The notes under the pieces: model-generated
Told to the model about the DNA's origin: nothing
Database searches by the model: none
Seen by the model: the letters and a program-made list of their open reading frames with translations, nothing else
Translations under genes and position numbers: made by a program
NCBI GenBank assembly: GCA_013792135.1
Contig: VMSP01000060.1
Span: forward strand, 1-62,673
Reading direction: 5' to 3'
Source: Desulfocapsa sp.
GTDB taxonomy: Bacteria; Desulfobacterota; Desulfobulbia; Desulfobulbales; Desulfocapsaceae
Length of the DNA: 62,673 bases
Shown: positions 3,985 through 47,124 of the stretch, piece after piece
Layout: the number at the start of each line of letters is the position of its first letter
How positions within the stretch are numbered: position 1 is the first letter of the stretch

Positions 3985-4991
3985 GCCTTTGGTATTATGC
4001 GCTGCTTTTTCTTGGCTCATTGTTGCTTACGGGGGTGTTCAGTCGCTATGCTGTAAAAACACGTTTGCTGGATGTTCCGAATTATCGGAGTTCACATAGT
4101 ATCCCAACACCTCGTGGTGGTGGGCTTGCGATTATTGTGACATTTCTGGCTGGGAGTTTATTGTTGGTACAGTTTGCTGTTCTTCCTGTTAAAGTATTTC
4201 GTGGTGTGAGTTTATGCAGTGGGCTTGTGATAGGGATCGGTCTTTGGGATGATTTTCGTTCTGTGCCGTCCTCAGTACGTCTTGCTATACACTTACTTGC
4301 TTCATCCCTGGTGGTCTTTTGGCTGGTTACAGTATATTCGCCATTCCTGACAGCAGCGTTTTCTAGGGGATGGTTCGGTACCATACTTACTGTCATAAGT
4401 ATGACCTGGCTTCTGAATCTGTTTAATTTTATGGATGGTATTGATGGTATTGCTGCTCTGGAAACAATAAGCGTTGCCGGCAGTGCGATGCTTCTGCTCT
4501 GGTTCACTGGTGCCGCTGGTATGTATGTCTATTGGTTTGGAATACTGTTCGTGGCTGCAGCAGGTTTTCTTGTTTGGAACTGGCCGCCAGCAAAAATATT
4601 TATGGGAGATGCCTGCAGTGGTTTCTTGGGATTTTGTTTTGGCATACTTGCGATAATGACTTCTGTCGATACAAAAATGACTCTTTGGACCTGGCTGATT
4701 CTGCTCGGGGTGTTTATTGCTGATGCAACAGTGACATTGTTGCGGCGCATATTTCGAAAAGAACGATTTTTTGAAGCCCATCGCAGTCACGCCTATCAGA
4801 TTCTTTCAAGGCGTTGGCATTCACATAAAAAAGTGACATTAGGTGTTTTGGCTGTTAATATACTATGGCTTTTTCCTTGTGCCTTCTTTTCTATATCCTG
4901 GCCATGTTATGGCCTTTTTTTTGCCATTATATCCTATGTGCCTTTGCTCTTTTTTTGTCTGATGATTGGGGCAGGTACAACCAATGAGTAG
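3981..4991 (+). CDS. Polyprenyl-phosphate N-acetylhexosamine-1-phosphate transferase (WbpL/WecA family)
   Basis: This 336-residue polytopic inner-membrane protein of the MraY/WecA (PNPT) superfamily transfers a sugar-1-phosphate to undecaprenyl phosphate and so starts repeat-unit or primer synthesis. Visible signatures are HSIPTPRGGG at about residue 39, NFMDGIDG (the Mg-binding DGIDG region) near residue 149, MGDACSGFLGF near 208 and the C-terminal HRSHAYQIL basic loop. About ten hydrophobic segments cover the chain. It overlaps the upstream SDR by 4 bp (ATGA). The pairing with the WbpV-like SDR suggests the substrate is UDP-FucNAc, UDP-QuiNAc or UDP-GlcNAc, by analogy only. A second, unrelated initiating enzyme of PHPT type lies at 51568-52983. 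Confidence 0.9.
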   Translation: MSLWYYALLFLGSLLLTGVFSRYAVKTRLLDVPNYRSSHSIPTPRGGGLAIIVTFLAGSLLLVQFAVLPVKVFRGVSLCSGLVIGIGLWDDFRSVPSSVRLAIHLLASSLVVFWLVTVYSPFLTAAFSRGWFGTILTVISMTWLLNLFNFMDGIDGIAALETISVAGSAMLLLWFTGAAGMYVYWFGILFVAAAGFLVWNWPPAKIFMGDACSGFLGFCFGILAIMTSVDTKMTLWTWLILLGVFIADATVTLLRRIFRKERFFEAHRSHAYQILSRRWHSHKKVTLGVLAVNILWLFPCAFFSISWPCYGLFFAIISYVPLLFFCLMIGAGTTNE

Positions 4992-5050
4992 AACTTTCAT
5001 TTACGATCTGATGCCAGTCTTGCTGGTGGTATGATTTTTAAAGCAGGTTT

Positions 5051-6889: not shown

Positions 6890-6964
6890 ATTTAATAAAA
6901 TTGAACTGGAAATTTTTTTTGTTATCCGTAATTCTTTCATCGGTTGCATAAAACACTATATCTC

Positions 6965-7939
6965 ATGTCAATTTCTTGTGTTGCTCAGAAAAGGCCCTTG
7001 ATCTCGATCATACTTCCCACTTGGAACGGCGCGGCATTTATGCGAGAACTGCTTGGGGTGTTATGCAGTCAGACGGTTCTTTTTAATGAGTTGTTGGTTG
7101 TTGATTCTTCCTCTAGTGATCAAACGGTTGAAATTGCTAAAGAATTTGGTGCTGAAGTTGTGGTTATTCCCGAAGAAGAATTTGATCATGGGGGAACCCG
7201 GACCATGATATCCAAACAAGCACAGGGGGATATCCTGATCTTTCTTACTCAGGATGCTGTTCCTACCTCGACTGACGCGCTAGTAAAACTTATCCAACCT
7301 TTGTTGTCAGATGAGACTATTGCCGTCACCTATGGTCGTCAACTGCCAAATCGTGACGCTACGCTGCTTGCTGCACATTTGCGTTCTTTTAATTATCCAA
7401 ATCAAACGGTTGTACGCAGTTTTGCTGATCGAGAGCGGCTTGGATTTCAAACTGTATTTGTCTCAAATTCCTTTGCAGCCTATCGCAAGATTGCCCTTGC
7501 CGAGGTAGATTATTTTAAAAGCGGCTTAATTTTTGGTGAGGATACCTGTGCGGTTGGTCGGTTATTGATGCGGGGCTATAAAGTCGCCTATGTGAGTGAT
7601 GCGATGGTCTTTCATTCACACAATTATAGCTGCTTACAGGAGTTTAGGCGCTCATTTGATATTGGAGTGCTGCATGTTACGGAAGAATGGTTGCTTGATA
7701 CCTATGGACGTGCCGAGGGAAGAGGTTGGCAATATGTCAAATCTGGCGTCATTCACCTCATGAATGTTAAAAAAGCGTTGTTGCCAAATTTCTTCTGGAG
7801 GATATTTCTCAAGTTTATTGGCTATAAACTAGGGTACAATTTTCAGTCATTGCCGCAATGTTTGATTCCCTTCTTGAGCATGCATCGATCTTGGTGGGTT
7901 AGCTTTAGAGATGCGTCTGTGTTTCATAAGACTTTGTAA
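6965..7939 (+). CDS. Family 2 glycosyltransferase (rhamnosyltransferase-like)
   Basis: This is a GT-A enzyme of about 324 residues. It opens with RPLISIILPTWNGAAFMRE, has DSSSSDQTVEIA, the region ILIFLTQDAVP containing the Q/D-D metal site, and GEDTCAVGRLLMRGYKVAYV, the acceptor-side ED motif. The FDHGGTR segment is typical of rhamnosyltransferase-like GT2 proteins such as WbbL/RfbF. I chose the ATG at 6965; an in-frame TTG at 6944 would add seven residues. It ends 5' of a long stretch that holds only a decayed fcl gene. The predicted role is addition of a deoxysugar to the growing glycan; the sugar identity is inference. Confidence 0.85.
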   Translation: MSISCVAQKRPLISIILPTWNGAAFMRELLGVLCSQTVLFNELLVVDSSSSDQTVEIAKEFGAEVVVIPEEEFDHGGTRTMISKQAQGDILIFLTQDAVPTSTDALVKLIQPLLSDETIAVTYGRQLPNRDATLLAAHLRSFNYPNQTVVRSFADRERLGFQTVFVSNSFAAYRKIALAEVDYFKSGLIFGEDTCAVGRLLMRGYKVAYVSDAMVFHSHNYSCLQEFRRSFDIGVLHVTEEWLLDTYGRAEGRGWQYVKSGVIHLMNVKKALLPNFFWRIFLKFIGYKLGYNFQSLPQCLIPFLSMHRSWWVSFRDASVFHKTL

Positions 7940-8076
7940 AGAAAGATCATTACTGTTTTGAGTGGGAAGCCCTTGGTCTTTTGGGAGAATTGTTCGCGAA
8001 CCAAAATATATAGGGATCAGTAAAAAAATGATCAAATGATACTCAGTTGTTTATCCTGCTGGGAACCAGTAATATG

Positions 8077-8856
8077 TATTGCTGGTCATACTGGCAGTTG
8101 TCAGAGTGGGAGATTCTCTGACCAATGATGCCACTTTTCACGCAGACTTTATTTGTTAACATCTGGTAATTTAGAATAATATTATTTATGCTGCGTGGCA
8201 GCTAGGGGTAAAAATACTGTTATTTCTTTACAGTTCGTTTATTTACCCTAAGCTTGCGTCCCCATCCCATGAAGGAAGAATGTTTTCTCCCCGGGCCTTT
8301 TGAACCAAACAATGAAATGTATGCAATTGCTAAGATTGCCGGTATCAAGATGTGTGAAGCGTATAATTGTCAGTATAGAACCAGTTATTTATTTTGCTGT
8401 TATGCCGATTAATCTATATGCGGTTGGAGATCATTATGGTTTGCATAATTCCCATGTGTTACCAGCCTTGATATGTAAAATGCATGATGCAAAACATGGA
8501 GGTCCAAAAAAGGTCATACTCTAGGGTAACTGGTACACCACACAGGAACTTTTTGCACTGTGATTTCACCATGCCGATGCGATTGTTTTTTACTCTCATT
8601 GGAAAGAGATACTCTGTTTTTCTCGCTACCTTTAAGAGGACCGCTTTTAATTAATATCAGATACGGAATGGATATCACAATCCAGCAGTTTGTCGAAAAG
8701 ATACGCAGGATTATCGATTTTACCAATAAAATCATCAGGGATGAAACGAAATCGGACTGCACCCCTCAAAAACTCCTTGATGTCAATCGGATGACGTTTT
8801 AGGTTGGCAACCAACTGTCTCGTTAACAGACGGTATTTAAGATATCTATATCAATT
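8077..8856 (+). pseudogene. fcl: Decayed GDP-L-fucose synthase (fcl) gene
   Basis: Translating the three frames piecewise recovers ordered blocks of GDP-L-fucose synthase: IAGHTG (8077), then NDATFHADFI and [13 protein letters not shown] with two in-frame stops (8124-8215), then [14 protein letters not shown]. After a frameshift come [20 protein letters not shown] and [14 protein letters not shown], which contains the catalytic Y-x3-K. Another shift gives [35 protein letters not shown] and VTGTPHRNFLHCDF. The final frames give ADAIVFLLSLE, YGMDITIQQFVEKI, CTPQKLLDV and GWQPTVSLTDGI (to about 8856). Roughly 60 residues after the N-terminal glycine loop are missing. At least four frameshifts and several stops rule out function. 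The enzyme would convert GDP-4-keto-6-deoxymannose, the product of Gmd encoded at 11094, into GDP-L-fucose. Confidence 0.93.
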
Positions 8857-8893
8857 ATTCGACCGATATGGTTGAGGTGCAAGTCGCCCATTA

Positions 8894-10936
8894 ATGAGCA
8901 GAATCATTTTATCAAAAAATATCTCTGAAGTTTTTTCAAAAGGCCTTTTTGTCGTATTTTATATGCTTCTGCTGGTTGAAGCTTTTGCGATATTACAAAA
9001 TTCGTCTACCCTTTTATCGTCGACCCTTGTGGTGGCCACTTTTTTTCTTGCCACATTGTTCAGCCCATTCTGGGCTATATGGTTTTTTGTTGCGGTTATC
9101 CCACTCATTAATGGTTTTTTTGTGATGAAAGGGGTTGGTGATATTTCACTGGCATTTGCTGGTGTCTATCTTGCGTGGCTCCCTCAACAGTTGATTAAAA
9201 ATAAAAGTTTTCAATCTTCAAGCTCTGCCGTTTTTTTTGCAAATTTGCTGGCTACTATTGTTTTTTTTAACATATTTCTTGTTTATGTACGCATTTTGGA
9301 ATTTCCAATACCTTCCAGATTGTGGTTTGATTGGTTTACTTATTTTCCATTTGCTGGCCAGAAAGATAATTTGTGGCAGATCAACGCTTCGCTCATTTTA
9401 TTGCAGGGTATATTTCTGTTTAAGATGCTTGATATAGAATTGATAAATCGTAACTATTTTATTTTTTTCACAAAAGTTGTTTATGCTCAGGCAATTTTTA
9501 TTATAGCTTTCTCCTTGATTCAGCTTGTAAATTTTAAAATAAGAGGCGAGAATTACTTAGGAATTTATCTTCCATTTAATGATATCCATTCTTACGGAAG
9601 TTATGTGGTTCTGCTATTGGGCGTATTTACTGCTTTTTTTCTGAATAGTTTAACCATACGAAGGGAATATCAACCTGATAAAAAACAAGAAAAAGATCAT
9701 TTAGCATTTCTTTGGTTTGATGTATCTAGAATAATAGGATTCTTTTATAAGTTGTCATTCAAAACTGTTGTTAATGGATTTCTTGCTGTTTCTTTCTTTT
9801 TTTTATGTTGTTATTCTTCTTCCAGGATGACGTGGTTGGCAATGGGGGTAATTCTTTTTTTTCTTGTCATTGTTGCAATAAGAAATAAAAAAATAATTAC
9901 TTGTTTTGGTATTATTATAGTCCTTATAACTATTATTAGTAGCCTGTTTGTTCCCCAATTGCTTCAATCAAATAATCCCTCATTGTACCGATTGGGATCT
10001 TTTTTAAATGTTAAAAATTTTAACAAGGATGAAAATCTTCTTATACGGTTTGAGTTATGGAAGCGCTCTTTGAAAATGGCTAAAGATTACCCTCTTACCG
10101 GTGTGGGGCTGGGTAATTTTTATAGGACTAATGTACATTACAAAAATAATTCCATGGGCCGGTGGGATTCAGAGAATACTCATAATTATTATCTGCAAGT
10201 ATTAGCAGAGCTTGGAGTTCCTGGTCTCATATTGTTTCTGGTGCTATTGTCTTCTCTTTATTCGCGTCGAGTAACTGTAGCCGTAAGGGAGGGTGATGGC
10301 TTATCTCCTGAATTTTCTGTAAAGCCATTTTGTTATGGTCTTGGTGCCTATCTTTTAACTATGTTAACGGGCCATCCACTTCTTCTTTCCAGTCAACAAT
10401 TTTTATTCTGGGCTATTGTAGCTATAATTTCAAAAGGTCATTTTTTTGTATTAGGTGAGGATGAGAGAGTATTGCCTGAATATAAAATACCCAAAATAGT
10501 TGGTGCTTTTATTTTTTTTCTTTTTGTACTTGGGTTCAGTAAAAATTTGTACAAACATGAACCTTGGACTATTCCTGTTGAATATGGATTGTATCCTACT
10601 GAAAATTGGGATGGTGGCAAGATGAGGTGGATGGCAGGTAAGGCAGAATATTATCTTCCTGAGACGACAAGAGAATTGAATCTAAAGATTGTGGCGCAAC
10701 CTTTTAACAGTCAGAAACCGGAAGGGCTAACACTTATAATATCAATAAACGATTCAGTTGTTGATAAAGTTCATTTTATTGAAGGCGGGACTAAAAATCT
10801 CAGTTATAATATTTCGTCTATTAATAAACAGGATATTAAAGTTAATTTGGAAGTGGATAAGGTATTTTGTCCCAAGACGATTGGACTCAATAGTGATTTC
10901 AGGATACTCGGAGTCGCTTTAGGTTTAGATGATTAG
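8894..10936 (+). CDS. O-antigen ligase/polymerase-like membrane protein with C-terminal beta domain
   Basis: This 680-residue, strongly AT-rich gene encodes about 12 membrane segments. A large periplasmic loop near residues 370-430 contains RFELWKRSLKMAKDYPLTGV and GLGNFYR followed by NTHNYYLQVLAELG, the Wzy_C/O-antigen ligase (WaaL-Wzy) signature with its conserved Arg and His. The last 120 residues, after the final helix, start EYGLYPTENWDGGKMRWMAG and are predicted to be a periplasmic beta-sandwich, a module also found on other membrane glyco-enzymes. It could polymerise repeat units (Wzy), ligate glycan to lipid A-core (WaaL) or glycosylate protein; sequence alone does not decide. The base composition differs from its neighbours, as is common for wzy genes. 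The start ATG is at 8894, just after the fcl remnant. Confidence 0.82.
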   Translation: MSRIILSKNISEVFSKGLFVVFYMLLLVEAFAILQNSSTLLSSTLVVATFFLATLFSPFWAIWFFVAVIPLINGFFVMKGVGDISLAFAGVYLAWLPQQLIKNKSFQSSSSAVFFANLLATIVFFNIFLVYVRILEFPIPSRLWFDWFTYFPFAGQKDNLWQINASLILLQGIFLFKMLDIELINRNYFIFFTKVVYAQAIFIIAFSLIQLVNFKIRGENYLGIYLPFNDIHSYGSYVVLLLGVFTAFFLNSLTIRREYQPDKKQEKDHLAFLWFDVSRIIGFFYKLSFKTVVNGFLAVSFFFLCCYSSSRMTWLAMGVILFFLVIVAIRNKKIITCFGIIIVLITIISSLFVPQLLQSNNPSLYRLGSFLNVKNFNKDENLLIRFELWKRSLKMAKDYPLTGVGLGNFYRTNVHYKNNSMGRWDSENTHNYYLQVLAELGVPGLILFLVLLSSLYSRRVTVAVREGDGLSPEFSVKPFCYGLGAYLLTMLTGHPLLLSSQQFLFWAIVAIISKGHFFVLGEDERVLPEYKIPKIVGAFIFFLFVLGFSKNLYKHEPWTIPVEYGLYPTENWDGGKMRWMAGKAEYYLPETTRELNLKIVAQPFNSQKPEGLTLIISINDSVVDKVHFIEGGTKNLSYNISSINKQDIKVNLEVDKVFCPKTIGLNSDFRILGVALGLDD

Positions 10937-11093
10937 CTCTGTGATCCTTGCTCTCAATAAGGGATAACTCAAATGAGTTGACCTCTGGGGTTTTTCATTT
11001 TAAAATCAATTTTCTAGTGAGCTTGTAATTGTTTTTTTAGGGATACAATTTGTCGTTTGTATGTATAGAATAATAATCCAAAAGGATATTTTA

Positions 11094-12227
11094 ATGAAAA
11101 AAGCTTTAATTACCGGCGTGACTGGTCAGGATGGTGCTTATCTTGCCGAATTTTTATTGAACAAAGGATACGAAGTGCATGGTATGAAACGTCGTACCTC
11201 TCTCTTCAATACAGATAGAATTGATCACCTGTATCAGGGGTCGCATGAAGAACATCGGCAGTTCTTTTTGCATCATGGAGATATGACGGATTCGAGTAGC
11301 TTGATCCATATCCTCCAAAAAGTCCAACCTGATGAGGTATATAATCTGGCTGCTCAGTCTCATGTCGCTGTTTCTTTTGAAGAGCCGGAGTACACGGCTA
11401 ATTCTGATGCCCTTGGAGCCTTGAGGATATTGGAAGCGATCCGGACTATTGGGCTTGCAGAAAAAACAAGGTATTATCAGGCATCTACCTCCGAGTTGTT
11501 TGGTAAAGTTCAGGAAACTCCTCAGACCGAGAAAACCCCTTTCTATCCCCGTTCCCCTTATGCCGTGGCGAAGCTCTATGCCTATTGGATTACAGTGAAT
11601 TATCGTGAGGCCTATGGGTTTTACGCCTGTAATGGAATCCTCTTTAACCATGAATCTCCGGTTCGTGGAGAGACCTTTGTCACCAGAAAAATTACCCGTG
11701 CCTTAAGCCGGATCGTCCTTGGTTTGAAAAAATGTGTCCATCTTGGAAATCTTGACGCCAAGCGTGACTGGGGACATGCAAAAGACTATGTGGAAATGCA
11801 ATGGTTGATGCTCCAGCAGGAGGTTCCTGAAGATTTTGTCATTGCCACGGGCAAGCAATACTCGGTTCGTGATTTTGTCGGGGCGGCAGCCAGTGAATTG
11901 GGTATCAGTATAAAGTGGCAAGGAAGCGGATTGGAGGAGCTGGGTGTTGTTGATCAGGTGGAACATCTTGAAACAAGTGCGTTTGATGCAAGCGTTCATG
12001 TAAAATCGGGTGATGTCATTGTTCGGGTTGATCCTCGCTATTTCCGTCCAACAGAGGTGGAAACTTTGTTGGGGGATGCTACAAAAGCCAAGGAGAAACT
12101 GGGATGGGTACCAAAGATTACTTTTAAGGAGTTGGTTTCCGAGATGATACACCATGACATGGAAGAGGCGCGTCGGGACGAACTTTGTCGGAATGAAGGA
12201 TTTCGAATCAACTCCTATTATGAGTAA
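11094..12227 (+). CDS. gmd: GDP-mannose 4,6-dehydratase
   Basis: This 377-residue SDR converts GDP-D-mannose to GDP-4-keto-6-deoxy-D-mannose. Visible are [15 protein letters not shown] (cofactor loop), [22 protein letters not shown], the catalytic ASTSELFG (Thr/Ser-Glu) and the Y-x3-K in [13 protein letters not shown]. The substrate-side [17 protein letters not shown] and the C-terminal [18 protein letters not shown] are also present; all are Gmd hallmarks. The start is the ATG at 11094 behind AAAGGAT; an upstream ATG at 11061 lacks a ribosome site. The stop overlaps the next gene by 8 bp. Because fcl nearby is dead, the keto sugar must go elsewhere, possibly to GDP-D-rhamnose through the next gene. 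Confidence 0.95.
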
Positions 12228-13188
12228 AACTGCTCTTATCTTAGGGGTCTCTGGTCAGGATGGAGCCTATTTATCCAAACTGCTTCTGAACAAAGGGTAT
12301 CGTGTCGTTGGGTCATCGCGTGATGCCCAGATGTCGTCCTTTGCCAATCTAGAACGTCTTGGGATAAAGGGAGAGGTCCAGACTGAATCCGTTTCCTCCA
12401 ATGATTTTCGCAGTGTACTGCAGGTGCTGAAAAAGGTGGAGCCGGATGAAATTTACAATCTGGCGGGACAGAGCTCTGTTGGCCTTTCATTCAGTCAGCC
12501 CGTTGAGACTTTTGAGAGTATAGGTATAGGAACATTGAATCTGTTGGAGGCGATACGCATACAGGATATGCCTGTACGGTTCTACAATGCCTGTTCAAGC
12601 GAATGTTTTGGTAATACTGATGGTGAACGTGCGGATGAAGAAACCCCGTTTCGTCCACGTAGCCCCTATGCGGTGGCAAAAGCAGCAGCCTTCTGGCAGG
12701 TAGCCAACTATCGTGAGGCATATGGCCTTTTTGCCTGTTCCGGTCTGTTGTTCAATCATGAATCGCCCCTTCGCCCGGAGCGATTTGTTACCCAGAAAAT
12801 TGTCCGCGAGGCGTGTCAGATTAAGGCTGGTTTGCAGCAGAAGATGAAGCTTGGCAATATTACGGTTATGCGTGACTGGGGATGGGCACCAGAGTATGTC
12901 GAAGCCATGTGGCTGATGCTCCAGCAGGATGAGGCCGATGACTATATCGTGGCCACGGGAAAAACTTATAGTTTGGAAGAGATGGTGGAGACCGTCTTCT
13001 CCTCTCTGGGGCTTAATTGGCAGGAGCATGTCGAGTTGAATCCTGATTTGCTGCGTCCAACCGATATCAAGATCTCCCTTGCTGATCCTGGAAAGGCGGC
13101 AAGAGAGTTGGGCTGGAAGGCCAAATATGGAATGAAGGATGTGGCGGCGATGATGGTCGAAGCGTGCATGAAGGATATGGAAAATTAA
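12220..13188 (+). CDS. Gmd-like SDR, candidate GDP-6-deoxy-D-lyxo-4-hexulose reductase (Rmd role)
   Basis: This 322-residue SDR is clearly related to Gmd: [41 protein letters not shown]-x3-K in [13 protein letters not shown], and [17 protein letters not shown]. It is shorter and more diverged than the preceding gene. It lacks the Arg-Thr-Ser block after the second strand ([11 protein letters not shown] instead of HGMKRRTS), and the catalytic Thr position is Ser. Two consecutive Gmd-family genes are otherwise redundant, so I infer that this one acts on the Gmd product as a 4-reductase giving GDP-D-rhamnose or GDP-talose. A second dehydratase is the alternative. The ATG at 12220 overlaps the gmd stop (ATGAGTAA), implying coupling. 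It lies directly upstream of an ABC O-antigen exporter. Confidence 0.78.
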
Positions 13189-13253: not shown

Positions 13254-14057
13254 ATGGGTGATTTCAAAGGTCGTCTTATTGCCCTGTATCATTATAGAGG
13301 GTTTGTGCTCAGTATGGTTGCCAGGGAGTTCCGCAGCCGCTACATGGGCTCGCTTCTTGGTAGCATCTGGTCTATCCTGAATCCTCTGACTATGATTTTT
13401 ATCTATACGGTGATTTTTTCCCGGGTGATGCGGGCAAAATTGCCGGGCATTGACGATTCAATGGGGTATGGCCTTTTTGTCTGTGCCGGACTGCTGCCTT
13501 GGCTTTTTTTCGTTGAGCTTCTCAACCGTTTCCCCAATATCTTTATTGAACAGGCCGCGCTTCTGAAAAAAGTCAGTTTCCCCAGAATAACACTTCCTGT
13601 TATCGCTCTCTGTTCGGCCACTATCAACTTTCTGATAATTTTCACTCTGTTTCTTGCCTTTTTATTATTGACAGGTCGGTTTCCGGGCTGGGTTGTCTTG
13701 GGGTATGTTCCACTGCTCATTATGCAGCAGATGTTTGTGGTGGGCTTAGGGGTGATGCTCGGTAGTATGAATGTCTTTTTCCGGGATATCGGCCAATTTG
13801 TTAACGTGATCATCCAGTTCTGGTTTTGGTTTACTCCCATTGTCTATACACTGACCATGGTGCCGGAAAAAGCTCAAGGTCTTTTGTCCTTTAATCCAAT
13901 GACCTCTTTTCTCCAAGCCTATCAAAAGATCATTCTCCATGGCATATGGCCTGATTATATGAATTTTAAGTGGCATTTTTTGGGAGCACTTATTGCTCTG
14001 GTTGGTGGTTTTTTTGTGTTTCATCGACTGGCGGATGAAATGGTGGATGAGCTGTGA
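13254..14057 (+). CDS. wzm: O-antigen ABC exporter permease
   Basis: This 267-residue ABC-2 family integral membrane protein has six hydrophobic segments. It starts with a cytoplasmic amphipathic stretch (YHYRGFVLSMVAREFRSRYM) that leads into GSLLGSIWSILNPL, the classic Wzm/KpsM opening. FRDIGQFVNVIIQFWFWFTP carries the conserved coupling-helix and TM5 region. With the ATPase it would flip completed lipid-linked polysaccharide across the inner membrane. It is translationally coupled to wzt, whose GTG overlaps its stop codon. Confidence 0.93.
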   Translation: MGDFKGRLIALYHYRGFVLSMVAREFRSRYMGSLLGSIWSILNPLTMIFIYTVIFSRVMRAKLPGIDDSMGYGLFVCAGLLPWLFFVELLNRFPNIFIEQAALLKKVSFPRITLPVIALCSATINFLIIFTLFLAFLLLTGRFPGWVVLGYVPLLIMQQMFVVGLGVMLGSMNVFFRDIGQFVNVIIQFWFWFTPIVYTLTMVPEKAQGLLSFNPMTSFLQAYQKIILHGIWPDYMNFKWHFLGALIALVGGFFVFHRLADEMVDEL

Positions 14058-15304
14058 ACGCTTGTATCATTGTCAATAATCTGGGCAAGAAGTATAAACG
14101 GTACCCGAATCGCTGGACTCGTCTTGGTGAATGGCTCAGTTTCGGGAGATATCAGGGGCATCAGGCTTCCTGGATTCTGCGTAATCTCAGTTTTGAACTG
14201 AACGCGGGTGAGTCTCTGGGCGTGATCGGAGTTAACGGTGCCGGCAAATCAACATTATTAAAATTATTAACCAGGACATCGGTACCGAGTGAAGGGAAGA
14301 TCGAGATTCATGGCCGTGTTTCTGCCTTACTTGAGCTGGGGATGGGATTCCATCAGGATTTTTCCGGGCGTGTCAATGCCCTGATGACCTGCCAGATGAT
14401 GGGTTATAGTAGTGAAGAGGCTCACGCTCTCCTTGAAGAGATTCGAGAGTTCTCAGAGCTTGGTGACTATATGGATCAGCCTGTCAGGGTCTACTCTACA
14501 GGTATGCAGGTACGTTTGGCCTTCAGTGCCGCTACCGTCAGGCGTCCTGAAATTCTGATAGTTGATGAGGCGTTATCTGTGGGTGATGCCTATTTTCAGC
14601 ATAAATGTATCAGTCGTATTCGTGAGTATCGTGATCAGGGAACCACTCTTCTCTTTGTCTCCCATGATCCCGGGGCAGTGAAATCCTTATGTAATCGGGC
14701 AATTCTCCTGGATGGTGGAGCCATTGTCAAGGATGGTGCTCCGGATACCGTGCTTGATTACTATAACTCGGTAATAGCAAGAAATAAAAATGATGAGGAG
14801 ATTCGGCAGGTCGAGGGGATAGGTGGACGGATCTCAACCCGTTCCGGAAATGGAACTGCCAGAATCATGCAGGTGGATATTACAAAAAATGATGGCCTTT
14901 CAGTACGTTCTTTTTTGGTTGGAGAACAAGTGGTACTGCGTTGTGCTGTAGATTTTTATGAAGATATGGATAATCCTACAGTGGGAATTCTTCTGCGTGA
15001 TAGAATGGGCAATGATGTGTACGGAACCAATACCACGTACCTTGGCCACGGTGATATGAAAGTGAATGGTGGTGATAGCCTTGATGTGGCTTTTACCCTT
15101 CCCTTGAATATAGGCCCTGGAAATTATTCCGTTTGTGTTGCTATCCATGCCGGCGAGTCTCACCTGGAAGGAAATTGTGACTGGTGGGATCGCTGTCTTG
15201 TCCTACAGGTCATAGCTGGGGACGAGCCCCCTTTTGTAGGGGTGGTCTCCCTGCCTGTCGAGGTTATGGTAAGCAAGACCCGCCGGGACAATGTGGTTCC
15301 TTGA
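14054..15304 (+). CDS. wzt: O-antigen ABC exporter ATPase with carbohydrate-binding C-terminal domain
   Basis: This 416-residue protein has an ABC domain in residues 1-245: Walker A GVNGAGKSTLLKLL near residue 62, signature YSTGMQVRLAFS near 150, Walker B ILIVDEALSVGD near 168 and H-loop FVSHD. The first residues, NNLGKKYKRYPNRW, are typical of Wzt. Residues about 265-416 form a Wzt_C-type beta-sandwich (FLVGEQVVLRC, FTLPLNIGPGNYSV, CDWWDR). In known systems this domain recognises a chemically capped non-reducing end so that only finished chains are exported. The start is a GTG overlapping the wzm stop. The methyltransferase gene that follows is the natural candidate for making the cap. Confidence 0.94.
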   Translation: MNACIIVNNLGKKYKRYPNRWTRLGEWLSFGRYQGHQASWILRNLSFELNAGESLGVIGVNGAGKSTLLKLLTRTSVPSEGKIEIHGRVSALLELGMGFHQDFSGRVNALMTCQMMGYSSEEAHALLEEIREFSELGDYMDQPVRVYSTGMQVRLAFSAATVRRPEILIVDEALSVGDAYFQHKCISRIREYRDQGTTLLFVSHDPGAVKSLCNRAILLDGGAIVKDGAPDTVLDYYNSVIARNKNDEEIRQVEGIGGRISTRSGNGTARIMQVDITKNDGLSVRSFLVGEQVVLRCAVDFYEDMDNPTVGILLRDRMGNDVYGTNTTYLGHGDMKVNGGDSLDVAFTLPLNIGPGNYSVCVAIHAGESHLEGNCDWWDRCLVLQVIAGDEPPFVGVVSLPVEVMVSKTRRDNVVP

Positions 15305-16624: not shown

Positions 16625-18948
16625 ACCCTGTTGCCTTTGTTATTCCCTGGTTTGGTAAGAATTTAAAAGGTGGGGCCGAACAGCTTGCTTGGCAAGTCTC
16701 TAATCGTCTGGCAAAACGCGGGCATAAGATTGAAGTCCTGACTACCTGTTGCTCTTCCTTTCTCGAAGACTGGTCCACGAATCATCTGCCTTCAGGAAGT
16801 GAGATGCTCGATGGGCTTCTCGTGCGTAGGTTCAAGGTTGATAAGCGGAATGGAGACCTCTTTAATCATGCCAATAGTCATGCCCTTGCAATTCCTCCTG
16901 AAAATTTAAGAGCCGGTATCAATCCCTTTACCTTTGGGACGGGTGAGCTGTTTGTCGCCGAAAATATCAATTCTCTGGCCCTCGAACGCTATCTGAAATG
17001 GAATAAAAAAAGATATCACGCCTTTGTATTCCTGCCCTATCTTTACGGGGTTATTTTGAATGGCCTTCCTCACGTTGCTGAAAAATCCTTTCTGCAGCCA
17101 TGTCTCCATGATGAGGTATATGCTTATCTGCCCGAAGTTGAAAATATTATGCGAGGGTGTCGTGGTATCCTCTATAATTCACTGGGGGAGGAGTGTCTGG
17201 CCCATACTTTATTCGGGCCGGGTATTGACAGGAAGGGAGAGGTTGTCGGTGTTGGGGTTGAAAGTTTTGATCTGACTCACCAGCCATTACCAAAGCAAGT
17301 GGCAGGACTTGATCTGGACGAAGAAAAATATGTGTTGTGCCTGGGGCGGCGCGACAAAACCAAAAATACCGCGATGCTTGTTCAGGCATATCAGAAATAT
17401 CGCAAGAACCATCCGGAGAGCAAATTAATGCTGATAATTGCAGGCCCCGGTGAGGAACAGTTTGGTGCTTCGGTGCAGGGGGTATATGATCTCGGACTTG
17501 TTTCAGAACTGGACAAAGAAGCCTTGCTTTCCCGGTGCACAGTATTGTTCCAGCCTAGCAGAAATGAAAGTTATTCACGAGTTATTATGGAGGCCTGGTT
17601 TTACAACAGGCCTGTGGCTGTCCATGGTGAGTGTCTTGCAACCGCCATGGCCGTGAATGCGGCAGGCGGCGGGTGGTTAGCAACGAATCGTGAAGCGTGG
17701 GCGCATCTCTTCCATATGATCAGCAGTATGGAGGAAAGTGAATTGCTTGAATTGGGGAAAAAAGGCAGGGCATATGCCCGCCAGTACGCGGAATGGGATG
17801 CGGTAATTGACCGCTACGAGAGCGTGCTGGGGCTAAAATCAGCAGAAATATTAAAAGAAAAAACTCAACACAGGATAGGTCCGCGCACAATTCATCAGTT
17901 GGTTCCGGGTTTTGCCCATGGTGATGCGATCAGTAACCAGACCATGATTATTCGTGATCTGCTGAAGAAAAAAGGCTACAAGTCGGATATTTTTACAGAG
18001 CATATCGACCCTTCAATGACCCATGAAGCCCGCCTGTTCAAGGATGGAAAAGGGATAAAGGCGGATGTCGGTCTTATCTATCATCATTCCATTGGTGCAG
18101 GGCTTACTGATTTTGTCATTAACCACCCAGGGCCCAAAAGTCTTATCTATCATAATATTACCCCTCCGGAGCTGGTTCGCAATGCGGATCCGGAACTGGC
18201 ACTGAAACTTGAACAGGGACTCAATGATTTGAGCAGACTGGCTCCCCACTTTCCTGTCAGTGCCGGAGATTCCCGTTTCAACTGTCGTGATCTGGAAGAA
18301 AGTGGTTTTGCTTCACCATCCGTATTGCCTATCTGTATTGCCCCTGAAAAATGGAATATTCCGGCTGAACCCAATATGCTGACGAGGCTGCGTGACGGCA
18401 AAGATAATATTCTCTTTGTGGGACGACTGGCGGCCAATAAATGTCAGCATGATTTGATTGACGCCTTTGCTGTCTATCTTGCCATGTACGGGAACTGCAG
18501 GCTGATACTCGTGGGCGGTTTTATGGAAGAGGAAAAGTATTACCAGTCGTTGAAGGAGCGGGTACGTTTGCAAGGGCTTGAAGGTGACGTGCTGTTTACA
18601 GGAAAGGTTACCGACACCATCCTCCACGCCTGTTACCGATGTGCAGACCTGTTCTGGTCCATGAGTGAGCATGAGGGTTTTGGAGTGCCCCTTATTGAGG
18701 CCATGTGGTTTGATATTCCTGTCTTTGCGTATAAGAGTTCAGCTGTTCCGGAAACATTGGGGGAGGGCGGGCTTCTTTTTACCGATAAACAGGATGTTAA
18801 AGAACTGGCAGCAGCTGCAAGACTTCTTATGCATGACCCTGAAGTGCGAAGCAAAATACTCTCCGGGCAAAAACAACGAAGAGGAATATTCTTACCGGAA
18901 GCGATTCGGCTACAATTGGATGAATTCATTCGAGGGATGGATGTATAA
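16621..18948 (+). CDS. Double-domain family 4 glycosyltransferase
   Basis: The 775 residues contain two GT-B glycosyltransferases in tandem. Domain 1 (1-410) starts IPWFGKNLKGGAEQLAWQVS and has LGRRDKTKNTAMLVQAY and PSRNESYSRVIMEAW. Domain 2 (420-775) starts IHQLVPGFAHGDAISNQTMI and has FVGRLAANKCQHDLIDAF and SEHEGFGVPLIEAMW. Each half carries the E-x7-E-like donor motif, so two different or alternating linkages may be made by one polypeptide, as in WbdA/WbpX-type polymerases of ABC-exported O-antigens. It overlaps the methyltransferase stop, and the following gene begins inside its last codons. It is probably the main chain-extending enzyme of this module. Confidence 0.88.
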   Translation: MNPVAFVIPWFGKNLKGGAEQLAWQVSNRLAKRGHKIEVLTTCCSSFLEDWSTNHLPSGSEMLDGLLVRRFKVDKRNGDLFNHANSHALAIPPENLRAGINPFTFGTGELFVAENINSLALERYLKWNKKRYHAFVFLPYLYGVILNGLPHVAEKSFLQPCLHDEVYAYLPEVENIMRGCRGILYNSLGEECLAHTLFGPGIDRKGEVVGVGVESFDLTHQPLPKQVAGLDLDEEKYVLCLGRRDKTKNTAMLVQAYQKYRKNHPESKLMLIIAGPGEEQFGASVQGVYDLGLVSELDKEALLSRCTVLFQPSRNESYSRVIMEAWFYNRPVAVHGECLATAMAVNAAGGGWLATNREAWAHLFHMISSMEESELLELGKKGRAYARQYAEWDAVIDRYESVLGLKSAEILKEKTQHRIGPRTIHQLVPGFAHGDAISNQTMIIRDLLKKKGYKSDIFTEHIDPSMTHEARLFKDGKGIKADVGLIYHHSIGAGLTDFVINHPGPKSLIYHNITPPELVRNADPELALKLEQGLNDLSRLAPHFPVSAGDSRFNCRDLEESGFASPSVLPICIAPEKWNIPAEPNMLTRLRDGKDNILFVGRLAANKCQHDLIDAFAVYLAMYGNCRLILVGGFMEEEKYYQSLKERVRLQGLEGDVLFTGKVTDTILHACYRCADLFWSMSEHEGFGVPLIEAMWFDIPVFAYKSSAVPETLGEGGLLFTDKQDVKELAAAARLLMHDPEVRSKILSGQKQRRGIFLPEAIRLQLDEFIRGMDV

Positions 18949-21900
18949 GAAATCAATAGAAAATTGTTTGGTGGCGCTGGCAATGCTCGCTTTAGCGATC
19001 ATTTCTACCTATCCACTGATACAATATTTTGACCAAGCCATTCCCTATGCACCTTATGGCGGACCTTTAGGATGGAATAGAACTGGAGACATGCTGCAGC
19101 TGTTGTATTGGTTCTGGCTTGTGAAAGAAAACTTCATCGGGGCTGTTCCGTTTGATACAAACCCCTATGAGTTTAATACGCTCTTGGCCCATGATACTTC
19201 AGGGCTCAATACCATTCCTTTGGCTTTCCTGTACATGTTGTTCAGCCCTCTAGGGGATATAGCTGCCTATAACTGCACAATCCTCAGTTCATATGTGCTG
19301 GCCGGCGTGTTTATGTACCTTCTTGCTCGGTTGTATACCGGCAGTAGGGCCGGGGCGCTGTTTGGCGCCATAATCTTTACTTTTGCACCCAGTCGTATTC
19401 ATGGTGTGTCATCCGGGCATGGATATGGTTTTCTGTTTTTTTTATATCCATTTATTCTTTTTTTCTTAGAAAAAGGTATTCGGTCACGAAAAATCAGGTA
19501 CGGGATTTTAGCCAGTTTTGGTTTAATTTGTCTCGCAATGCTCGAGCCGCATCTCATTTATTATATTTGTGTGTTCTTGGGAGTGTTTCTACCTCTTCGT
19601 ATTGTTGCGCAATTTCCTGTTGTAAGTGATGAAAAAAATTCTTTTCCCAGAGGTGTTTTTAACTATGTATCTTCATGGTCAACTTCTCGTTCTTTATTTA
19701 TTTTATGGGGAGCTGGTATAGCAGTAATATTTTATACCCAAATACTTTTTGCTTGTCGTGATACCGACAAACTTGTTACGCCATTTTTTTGGTGGATAGT
19801 CGGAATTTATCCTTTCATTCCTATACTCCTTTCAGTCTGCATGGCTTCTGTTTATCAGCGGTTCTCTCCTTTAAGTTTTCGTCAAGGTTTAGCTGTGGAG
19901 GCCGGGGCGTCATTACCGCTTTATTTTCTCATTCTCCTATCCGGGGTGACATATTTTTACCGACCTGTTGATACTACAATAGTCGTTACCGTTCTTCTGG
20001 TGTCAGTTGTATTGGTAAGACTCATTTTGCTCAGATATTATTTGTTTTCCATGTTGCACATCTTGATAAAAGAAATATCTGTCAGAAAAAAGATGGTGTT
20101 ACCGATCATCCCGTTGATCTTTTCCATGGGGCTGATTGTCGTCTGGATTATATCGAGTAAGGTAAATCAAGTTTCCTCTACCATAGCTAGTGGTGGAAGA
20201 ACATTACGAGATGTAGAATTATTTTCTTCTCATCTGTCTGATCTTTTCAATTCTACAAGCCATGTGTATTTGGGAATAGTTCCGACTCTTTTGATCAGTT
20301 ATCTGTTCCTAATAGTTTTTTTGTATGCTGTTTCTTACAAAAAAAATGAAAAGATAGATGACGAAGCACAGTTAATCCGTCTTTTTTATCTAGTTGTGGC
20401 ATTTTGTTGCTATGTGCTGGCTCTTGGCGTAGCTTTCGGGAAATCATCTCTCTATATATTCTTTTATCACTATTTCCCCTTCTTTAATTATCCGAGAGTC
20501 TCTGATCGTATAATGACGATGGTCTTATTCGCTGCGTCTATTGCGGTTGCCTTTTCGGTGAAGAGCATTCAGCGCCGCTGTACGAAACCTGTGGCTCATA
20601 TCTTAGTGATTTCGATATTGGTGATTGCGATGGGTATGCAACTCAAAGATTATAACGTATTCAAGCCAATGGGGATAACCTTGCTTGACAAGGGACAGGA
20701 TACTTATACTCATGTGAAAGAGAATATAGGCGATGGCCTGCTTCTGGAAATACCTCTCTGGCCTGGAGATTCACACCAATCATCACTGTATCAGCATTAT
20801 ATTATGCTTGACAGAGTGAAACGAGTGAACGGGTATAGCCCGCTTGTCTTGAATGAATATATAGAAAATGTTGTTGCTCCTTTGAGCAGTATAAATACAG
20901 GAATGCTAAATCGTCAGCAGTATGAGATGCTACGCAAGCTAAAGGTCAAGTTTATTACTGTGCATGATCATGAAAATGTTTTTCCTAAAAAGGTATCATC
21001 TTATGGGCCGATAACGACTGTTCGACGTCTGATGCAATCGCCCTATCTGGAGTTTGTGAATATCGAAAATTTTATACATTTCAAGACCTTTGATTGGCGA
21101 AATAGGGATATTTATCTTTTCAAGGTTAAAGAGAGTGTTCCTGTTGAAGCTGAAAAAGAACAGAATGATTGGTATGATATGCCTTATTTTTATGGTGTGA
21201 ACAGTCGTCTACATCTGCAAACAGGAGAGGTCACAGAGGATAAAAAAATTGGCAGGCAGATCTTTGAGGCAATTGAGGGGAAACATAAGCCGGGATTTTT
21301 ACTCTATGGGCCATATGATGTTTATTCACCAGGTGAGTATCGTTGTTATTTTACCATTAATACGGATGCAAGTACTGAAGAAGATATTGCCAGGTTAGAG
21401 GTGGCCAGTGTTGCAGAAAACGGAGATCAGGTTGTTCTTTCTCAGAGAGAATTAAAAGGGGAGAAAGGGGACAAGCTTTACAAAAAGGTGTATCTCGATT
21501 TTTCTATTGCCGAGAAAGCTAAGTTGGAGTTTCGGGTTTTCTATTATGGAAAAGGAGAAGTGCGCGTTGAACAAGTCGCCGTTTACAAAGCAGGTAACGA
21601 TAGGCCACTTGACGTTCTTGAAGCGGCTAAGATGGTTGGTGACACCGGGCAGTTGGTCTATGAAAAAGATGCTTCTTCGGGAAGAGTTATTGAGGCCATA
21701 GCTGGGGAAAGTAAAAATGGAGAATTAGTCTATGGCCCCAATAGAATTTACAGCAAAGGGCAGTATCGAGCGCGTTTTTATCTACGAACGAAAAACGCGG
21801 GCAATTTAAATAAAACAGATGTTGCTGCAGCATTGTCGGTGACTAGCGAACCGGACGTGAATATTCTCTCTCATCGTAATGTTACGGTTGGAGAACTCAA

Positions 21901-22027
21901 CGAAAATTCTTTTACTGGAGTTGAGGTTGAGTTTGTATTAATGCGTGATGAAGAACTCAGTTTTCACGTGAAATTTACCGGCAAGGTAAGCCTGCAGCTT
22001 GATGGAATTGAAATTGAAAGGCGTTGA
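18941..22027 (+). CDS. Large polytopic GT-C-like membrane protein with two C-terminal beta-sandwich repeats
   Basis: I set the start at the ATG at 18941, which overlaps the previous stop, giving 1028 residues. Residues 1-600 contain about a dozen membrane helices; the first periplasmic loop has the acidic WNRTGDMLQLLYWF and DTNPYEF. I see no specific family motif, but the architecture (many helices, then periplasmic domain) suits a lipid-sugar-dependent GT-C transferase or YfhO-like protein. Residues about 770-1028 hold two related beta-sandwich units, marked by YGPYDVYSPGEYRCYF and YGPNRIYSKGQYRARFYL. These look like carbohydrate-binding modules. The gene is AT-rich compared with its left neighbours. 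The specific activity is unknown. Confidence 0.72.
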   Translation: MYKKSIENCLVALAMLALAIISTYPLIQYFDQAIPYAPYGGPLGWNRTGDMLQLLYWFWLVKENFIGAVPFDTNPYEFNTLLAHDTSGLNTIPLAFLYMLFSPLGDIAAYNCTILSSYVLAGVFMYLLARLYTGSRAGALFGAIIFTFAPSRIHGVSSGHGYGFLFFLYPFILFFLEKGIRSRKIRYGILASFGLICLAMLEPHLIYYICVFLGVFLPLRIVAQFPVVSDEKNSFPRGVFNYVSSWSTSRSLFILWGAGIAVIFYTQILFACRDTDKLVTPFFWWIVGIYPFIPILLSVCMASVYQRFSPLSFRQGLAVEAGASLPLYFLILLSGVTYFYRPVDTTIVVTVLLVSVVLVRLILLRYYLFSMLHILIKEISVRKKMVLPIIPLIFSMGLIVVWIISSKVNQVSSTIASGGRTLRDVELFSSHLSDLFNSTSHVYLGIVPTLLISYLFLIVFLYAVSYKKNEKIDDEAQLIRLFYLVVAFCCYVLALGVAFGKSSLYIFFYHYFPFFNYPRVSDRIMTMVLFAASIAVAFSVKSIQRRCTKPVAHILVISILVIAMGMQLKDYNVFKPMGITLLDKGQDTYTHVKENIGDGLLLEIPLWPGDSHQSSLYQHYIMLDRVKRVNGYSPLVLNEYIENVVAPLSSINTGMLNRQQYEMLRKLKVKFITVHDHENVFPKKVSSYGPITTVRRLMQSPYLEFVNIENFIHFKTFDWRNRDIYLFKVKESVPVEAEKEQNDWYDMPYFYGVNSRLHLQTGEVTEDKKIGRQIFEAIEGKHKPGFLLYGPYDVYSPGEYRCYFTINTDASTEEDIARLEVASVAENGDQVVLSQRELKGEKGDKLYKKVYLDFSIAEKAKLEFRVFYYGKGEVRVEQVAVYKAGNDRPLDVLEAAKMVGDTGQLVYEKDASSGRVIEAIAGESKNGELVYGPNRIYSKGQYRARFYLRTKNAGNLNKTDVAAALSVTSEPDVNILSHRNVTVGELNENSFTGVEVEFVLMRDEELSFHVKFTGKVSLQLDGIEIERR

Positions 22028-46179: not shown

Positions 46180-47124
46180 ATGCGAAAACAGGTATTGGTG
46201 ACGGGTGGGGCTGGATTTCTTGGTTCTCATCTATGTGAGAGACTGTTAAATGATGGGCATGATGTTCTTTGTGTGGATAATTTTTTTACCGGTAGCAAGG
46301 ATAATATTCTTCATATGCTAAAAAATCCACATTTTGAAGTAATGCGTCATGATGTGACTTTTCCGCTTTATGTTGAGGTGGATGAGATCTATAATCTGGC
46401 CTGTCCTGCCTCCCCGATTCATTATCAGCACGATCCGGTACAGACCACAAAGACCAGTGTGCATGGCGCGATTAATATGCTTGGGCTTGCCAAGAGGGTG
46501 AACGCAAAGATTTTTCAGGCCTCAACCAGTGAAGTCTACGGTGACCCGAAGATTCATCCACAAACTGAAGATTACTGGGGGAATGTCAACCCCATCGGTT
46601 TTCGATCCTGTTATGACGAAGGGAAACGTTGTGCTGAGACCCTTTTTTTTGATTACCGTCGTCAGCATAACCTGCGTATCAAGGTAGCTCGTATCTTCAA
46701 TACTTATGGGCCTAAAATGCATCCAAATGATGGAAGGGTTGTCTCTAACTTTATTATGCAGGCGCTTCAGGGGCTTCCCATTACCATTTATGGTGATGGA
46801 CTCCAATCTCGTTCTTTTTGTTATGTTGACGATCTTATTGAGGTCTTTGTTCGTTTGATGGGCAGCCCTGATGGCTTCACCGGACCGGTCAATACCGGTA
46901 ATCCAGGAGAGTTTACTATCAAGGAACTGGCGGAAAAAATTATTGATCTTACTGGATCATCGTCAAAGCTGGATTACAAACCTTTGCCTAGTGATGATCC
47001 TATCCAGCGTCAGCCTGATATTAGCCTGGCTAGAGAAAAGCTGGGATGGGAACCGAATATTCAACTGGAAGAAGGATTAAGAAAAACAATTCCTTATTTT
47101 GATGAGTTGCTTAAAACGTCATAG
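46180..47124 (+). CDS. UDP-glucuronate decarboxylase (UDP-xylose synthase)
   Basis: This product of about 314 residues starts [20 protein letters not shown] (NAD loop) and has [32 protein letters not shown] and [11 protein letters not shown]. The catalytic [10 protein letters not shown] and [13 protein letters not shown] (Y-x3-K) follow. [20 protein letters not shown] and [15 protein letters not shown] are diagnostic for the bacterial UXS1-type enzyme, which makes UDP-xylose from UDP-glucuronate via the 4-keto intermediate. In-frame ATGs at 46150 and 46168 would lengthen it slightly. A UDP-glucose dehydrogenase is not present in this window. The product would feed xylose to one of the nearby transferases. 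Confidence 0.93.

Follow-up and report, generated by a model that had tools for sequence, protein, structure and literature searches.

An ABC-transporter O-antigen cluster holding gmd, wzm, wzt and fcl is described from Dickeya (PMC7877592), and PMC6712391 describes pseudogenes as common in O-antigen islands, for example those of Salmonella, where in O:2/O:9 a frameshifted tyv is associated with the replacement of one glycan sugar by another. Two more sources serve as background only (PMC10606467, PMC10191223). The window analyzed here, a stretch of 62,673 nucleotides from a draft genome of Desulfocapsa sp. (GCA_013792135.1, contig VMSP01000060.1), unites gmd, wzm, wzt and fcl as does the Dickeya cluster, but its fcl is dead and a second gmd-like gene stands between gmd and wzm. 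Similar to the Salmonella tyv, the window fcl is a decayed sugar-nucleotide gene inside an otherwise working cluster; unlike in that case, intact fcl copies elsewhere in the genome probably keep the sugar available. When set against Fcl/WcaG itself (NF047922; PDB 1bsv and others), the relic shows collinear similarity to the greater part of the protein, but it is without an open frame, a start codon and the active-site Cys, and some 48 codons are deleted. Reciprocal, or divergent, loss of duplicated genes is a known concept, and the present case resembles it in that the window and a second contig of the same genome, C60, carry copies of a two-gene gmd-fcl module each of which is without a different member; unlike in reciprocal loss after a recent duplication, the two modules are diverged homologues. 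A literature search on gmd/fcl remnants in O-antigen gene clusters returned no match, from which we claim no absence from print, and for reciprocal gene loss the phrase was absent among the matches listed.

The fcl (GDP-L-fucose synthase) pseudogene occupies approximately 8044–8882 of the plus strand, as delimited by profile matches together with frame-aware and nucleotide alignment. When the interval separating its two flanking genes (7940–8893) was aligned in a frame-aware manner to an intact fcl from contig C26 of the same genome, the plus strand scored 523 and the minus strand 41, while the highest score among 60 dinucleotide shuffles was 49 (mean 32.6, sd 4.7). Among 130 tiles of the window, aligned on both strands, the top score beyond the relic was 109, at 46747 within an SDR-type gene. 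Further, a search with the fcl model NF047922 returned four separate, ordered matches within 8082–8796. Against the closest intact relative, the fcl of congener G002 at the same locus, 182 of 260 residues are identical (70%) over 8085–8879, and the frame-aware alignment changes frame six times and passes through four stops (8157, 8172, 8522 and 8838). Nucleotide alignment to G002, which also covers window 7996–8096 (G002 4930–5032), revealed a deletion of about 146 bp (about 48 codons) near 8085–8096, bounded by imperfect short direct repeats such that window 8085–8096 matches both sides. By eye, the start codon at about 8044 is changed and no longer a start; similarity to Fcl runs in order along the protein, but there is no open reading frame. 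Moreover, the motif GSSCIYP, kept in all 13 intact fcl compared, reads YSSFIYP in the relic, which has thereby lost GSSC, taken here to be the active-site motif of Fcl with Cys as the active-site residue. The relic makes no protein any more. The earlier note on this DNA had described it as recoverable in ordered blocks across frames, with stops, shifts and one internal deletion, and had proposed a frame-aware alignment to GDP-L-fucose synthases as a check; the strong similarity to Fcl over 7940–8893 and the lesions listed above bear out this description, and the limits given there (8077–8856) place the relic correctly while being slightly short of its extent. In a scan of 7900–11150, promoter-like sites numbered 17, as compared with a mean of 12.0 (sd 3.6) in shuffled sequence, and terminator-like sites five, as compared with 2.3 (sd 1.5).

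Frame-aware scores of the relic were highest with the fcl genes of the same locus in G002 (799), G003 (793) and G006 (760), and did not exceed 523 with seven other fcl tried, both copies from its own genome included. In the tree, the relic groups with these three orthologues (a fork of four rows, 80/84) inside a clade of five rows that also includes G022 (100/100), on a branch of 0.43 as compared with 0.09–0.11 for the orthologues (about four times longer), and the C60 fcl falls in a different clade from the relic's closest kin. Derivation of the relic from a C60- or C26-type module is ruled out by the scores and the tree. Where the three orthologues agree (221 sites at codon position 1, 225 at position 2 and 125 at position 3), the relic carries 31, 27 and 21 private changes, respectively, while those of the orthologues themselves lean to the third position (3/7/11, 9/4/31 and 9/12/28). 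Such an even spread over codon positions is as expected if a gene that once functioned here has been drifting neutrally. The relic is thus the decayed counterpart of an orthologous fcl that is still intact at the same ABC-transporter polysaccharide locus in congeners.

The genes described below all lie on the plus strand. Upstream of the relic is a GT2 glycosyltransferase gene (6944–7939; 76–82% identical in G002, G003 and G006), followed by a spacer (7996–8043) homologous to the one between the ligase-like gene and fcl in G002. Directly after the relic, where the earlier note had put a ligase/polymerase gene, an O-antigen ligase-like gene indeed follows (8894–10936; Wzy_C, 97.1 bits with a cut-off of 31.7), and beyond it are gmd, encoding GDP-mannose 4,6-dehydratase (11094–12227, the ORF being called from 11061), a second GMD-like gene, gmd2 (12154–13188), and a downstream core of a Wzm/Wzt-type polysaccharide ABC exporter (13254–15304), assigned from best NCBIfam matches that lie below the curated cut-offs. 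The order in the window is thus GT2, fcl relic, ligase, gmd, gmd2, wzm, wzt, and that in G003 and G006 is GT2, ligase, fcl, gmd, gmd2, wzm, wzt; G002 has the latter order, but its ligase-like gene is very different (25% identical). In other words, the ligase-like gene stands upstream of fcl in these three relatives, and between the fcl relic and gmd in the window. The window's order of fcl, ligase and gmd recurs, with fcl intact, in G023, a member of another genus, to whose ligase that of the window is 65% identical, as compared with 55–56% to that of G006; the block beside it that runs from gmd to a glycosyltransferase is 91–99% identical to a congener. Because the spacer upstream of the relic is still alignable with the one that separates ligase and fcl in G002, an older ligase gene seems to have been lost from that place, another now being present on the gmd side of the relic. 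The polysaccharide locus is a mosaic. In G003, the ligase-like gene (L029, C76, 10512–12555) matches in two pieces and may be split or damaged, and in G024 (L153, C4) an extra Wzm-like stretch (104262–105017; identity 33%) immediately precedes fcl, while the usual wzm is present behind gmd2 as well.

The gmd of the window, which the earlier note had reported as intact 2.2 kb from the relic, is indeed intact: it scores 591.9 bits (592 when rounded) against the 415-bit cut-off of TIGR01472 and carries TSELFG and YAVAK, which contain TSE and YxxxK, presumably the catalytic motifs of GMD. It is 98% identical to the gmd of G006, with 13, 2 and 53 differences at the three codon positions over 378 codons, and is under strong constraint. 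In a profile search of this draft of 186 contigs it was the sole full-length canonical gmd found; a further one could lie in an assembly gap. The adjoining gmd2, which overlaps the end of gmd and follows gmd in the nine relatives' loci mapped, scored 336.7 bits, below the TIGR01472 cut-off of 415, and in its motif SSECFG the TSE reads SSE. Among solved structures it is nearest to 1rpn, a GMD (331.8 bits), with the reductase 2pk3 at 117.2 bits. The intermediate that Gmd makes could also come from Gmd2.

A search of the genome for another fcl, also proposed in the earlier note, revealed two intact copies, at C60:31365–32333 (322 aa) and C26:7589–8569 (326 aa). Both are full-length frames with GSSC, YxxxK and SHV, which we take to be functional motifs of Fcl, and that of C26 aligns to the E. 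coli-type GDP-fucose synthetase 1bsv over residues 10–324. Their scores with NF047922 (485.2 and 472.1 bits) fall slightly under its cut-off of 500, which is passed in just 6 of 93 genomes of the family. Both are predicted to encode an expressed and active epimerase/reductase. Directly before the C60 fcl lies an ORF of 107 aa whose first approximately 100 residues are native gmd; about 0.8 kb of this gmd is missing by comparison with G015 and G012, where an intact pair of gmd and fcl is present, and the remainder holds neither TSE nor YxxxK, is not full-length and scores 137.2 of the 415 bits. A reading of this deletion as in-frame, taken from the alignment ends, was rejected on the junction sequence, in which the tail is in another frame. 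Therefore two gmd-fcl modules of this genome, those of the window and C60, have lost opposite halves.

Both contigs carry further genes consistent with continued fucose use. On C60 this is a member of the GT11 family, which scored 89.1 bits against a cut-off of 23.9, whereas 14 control genomes gave no match; on C26 it is a gene for a GH29 fucosidase (E 3.3e-79). A NodZ-like fucosyltransferase match on C26 was weak, 30.5 bits against a cut-off of 28.3, and fell below it in a second search (17.4). The 85% alignment of C60:30271–30869 to G015 supports C60 belonging to this genus; in tetranucleotide profile, the parts of C60 outside 20–40 kb correlate with window 1–15 kb at 0.61–0.67. C26 (15 kb) could be misplaced in the draft. 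Its correlation with the same part of the window is 0.96, but G022, of another genus, also reaches this value, so that composition does not discriminate; its acyltransferase-like protein has relatives just 34–43% identical, in 8 of 16 congeners, a result that bears on the placement in neither direction.

Within the genus, fcl (>400 bits) and full gmd (>600 bits) occur in the same 8 of 17 genomes. Family-wide, counting gmd matches above the cut-off and fcl matches of at least 300 bits, with weaker matches and C-terminal halves excluded, gmd was found in 62 of 93 genomes and fcl as well in 59 of these 62. The two genes are no more than 1.5 kb apart in 53 of the 59; the six exceptions are the source genome itself (G000), three genomes with a distance of 1.5–2.7 kb (G023, G024, G025) and two with the genes on different contigs (G033, G091). 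The three gmd holders in which no fcl was detected are all drafts, G032 being 72% and G045 81% complete; the gmd of G045 borders the end of its contig, and in G035 the contig starts within the ligase gene. A tree of gmd (110 columns, no starred fork, the G032 row left out) is not used as evidence. In the congener G012, the gmd on C7 (L064) has suffered an internal deletion, a frame shift and an insertion, whereas the fcl that follows it is intact; this genome also has a complete gmd-fcl pair on C2 and a C-terminal fcl fragment with a stop on C25 (L066). The broken gmd next to an intact fcl on C7 suggests that splitting of the module recurs in the genus, even though the complete pair on C2 is retained beside it.

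The substrates of Gmd and Fcl are diffusible, cytoplasmic GDP-sugars. We consider it likely that fcl decayed at this locus while the capacity for GDP-L-fucose was kept, the window gmd supplying the Fcl of C60 and C26 in trans. Since two intact fcl are present on those contigs, the capacity is very probably retained, and as the only full-length canonical gmd found, that of the window most likely supplies Fcl from other loci: it would make GDP-4-keto-6-deoxy-D-mannose for Fcl enzymes encoded elsewhere, and those from C60 and C26 would convert this 4-keto intermediate to GDP-L-fucose, so that the pathway is probably completed between loci. In a stronger form, put forward tentatively, all GDP-L-fucose of the organism may depend on the dehydratase of one locus and the synthases of others after complementary loss from the modules. 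If true, several surface glycans would be coupled through their supply of this sugar, and the window gmd would be indispensable though its local fcl is dead. That two copies of a two-step module have decayed in opposite halves makes this a clean example of an outcome already known in evolution, with no new kind of system involved.

As the assembly is a draft, the frame damage might be an error of sequencing or assembly over an intact fcl; yet the lesions are of many types (four stops, six frame changes, the deletion of about 146 bp, the changed start and active-site motif), and private changes amount to 12–17% at otherwise invariant sites, evenly across codon positions. Given lesions this numerous and varied together with the neutral pattern, we reject an artefact as next to inconceivable. 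The earlier note had instead concluded from the relic that L-fucose (or colitose-type) synthesis is lost, with gmd as a stranded survivor. The fcl of this locus is indeed dead, and the three of 62 family gmd genomes in which no fcl was seen, drafts throughout, indicate that real loss may happen. Against such a loss here stand the two intact fcl of the same genome, together with the GT11-family (89.1 bits) and GH29 genes on the very contigs that carry them, and we regard it as very improbable. An altered glycan at this one locus, which the earlier note had called probable, is possible. The local relic hints at loss of fucose and the whole genome contradicts it, which calls for caution when sugar composition is inferred from a single cluster.

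As the chief alternative, gmd may be retained together with gmd2 to serve a local glycan, in view of the pair without detected fcl in G032 and G035. On this explanation gmd never needed fcl for its local role, Gmd and Gmd2 would lead to a different GDP-6-deoxyhexose, such as one of the D-rhamnose type, for an ABC-exported polysaccharide, fcl would be dispensable cargo and the reciprocity with C60 coincidental; it is compatible with supply in trans. The block gmd-gmd2-wzm-wzt stays together in nine of nine mapped relatives' loci holding it (G002, G003, G006, G022, G023, G024, G032, G033 and G035), while fcl and the ligase vary; these loci, however, were fetched for their resemblance to the window, and in G004, where a gene resembling gmd2 (64%) accompanies gmd and fcl, no match to wzm or wzt occurs within the 16 kb covered. 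Among the nine, G033 has its fcl solely on another contig, and gmd with gmd2 but no fcl was found in G032, a draft at 72%, and in G035, where the contig starts inside the ligase. Across the family, on the other hand, gmd and fcl lie within 1.5 kb in 53 of the 59 genomes holding both, and gmd2 is much nearer to a dehydratase (1rpn, 331.8) than to a reductase (2pk3, 117.2), so that a reductase for a D-rhamnose-type sugar is not shown. We hold a purely local role of gmd to be possible but rather doubtful, and prefer retention of GDP-L-fucose synthesis with supply in trans.

Several minor features were observed in passing. The G012 fcl on C2, with an inserted stretch, was at first taken as odd and possibly damaged; this was dropped, many fcl of the family matching in two pieces inside long ORFs. 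In-frame N-terminal insertions are present in three fcl, those of G004 (L067), G005 (L054) and G015 (L068), and the stretch inserted in the G012 gmd relic (L064) is rich in glycine and charged residues; these insertions look like short repeat elements within coding sequence. Finally, further along the window, the frame of 1120 aa called at 18665–22027, for which no Pfam match was obtained at E 0.001, overlaps the end of the preceding glycosyltransferase gene by 284 bases, and its true start is probably further downstream.
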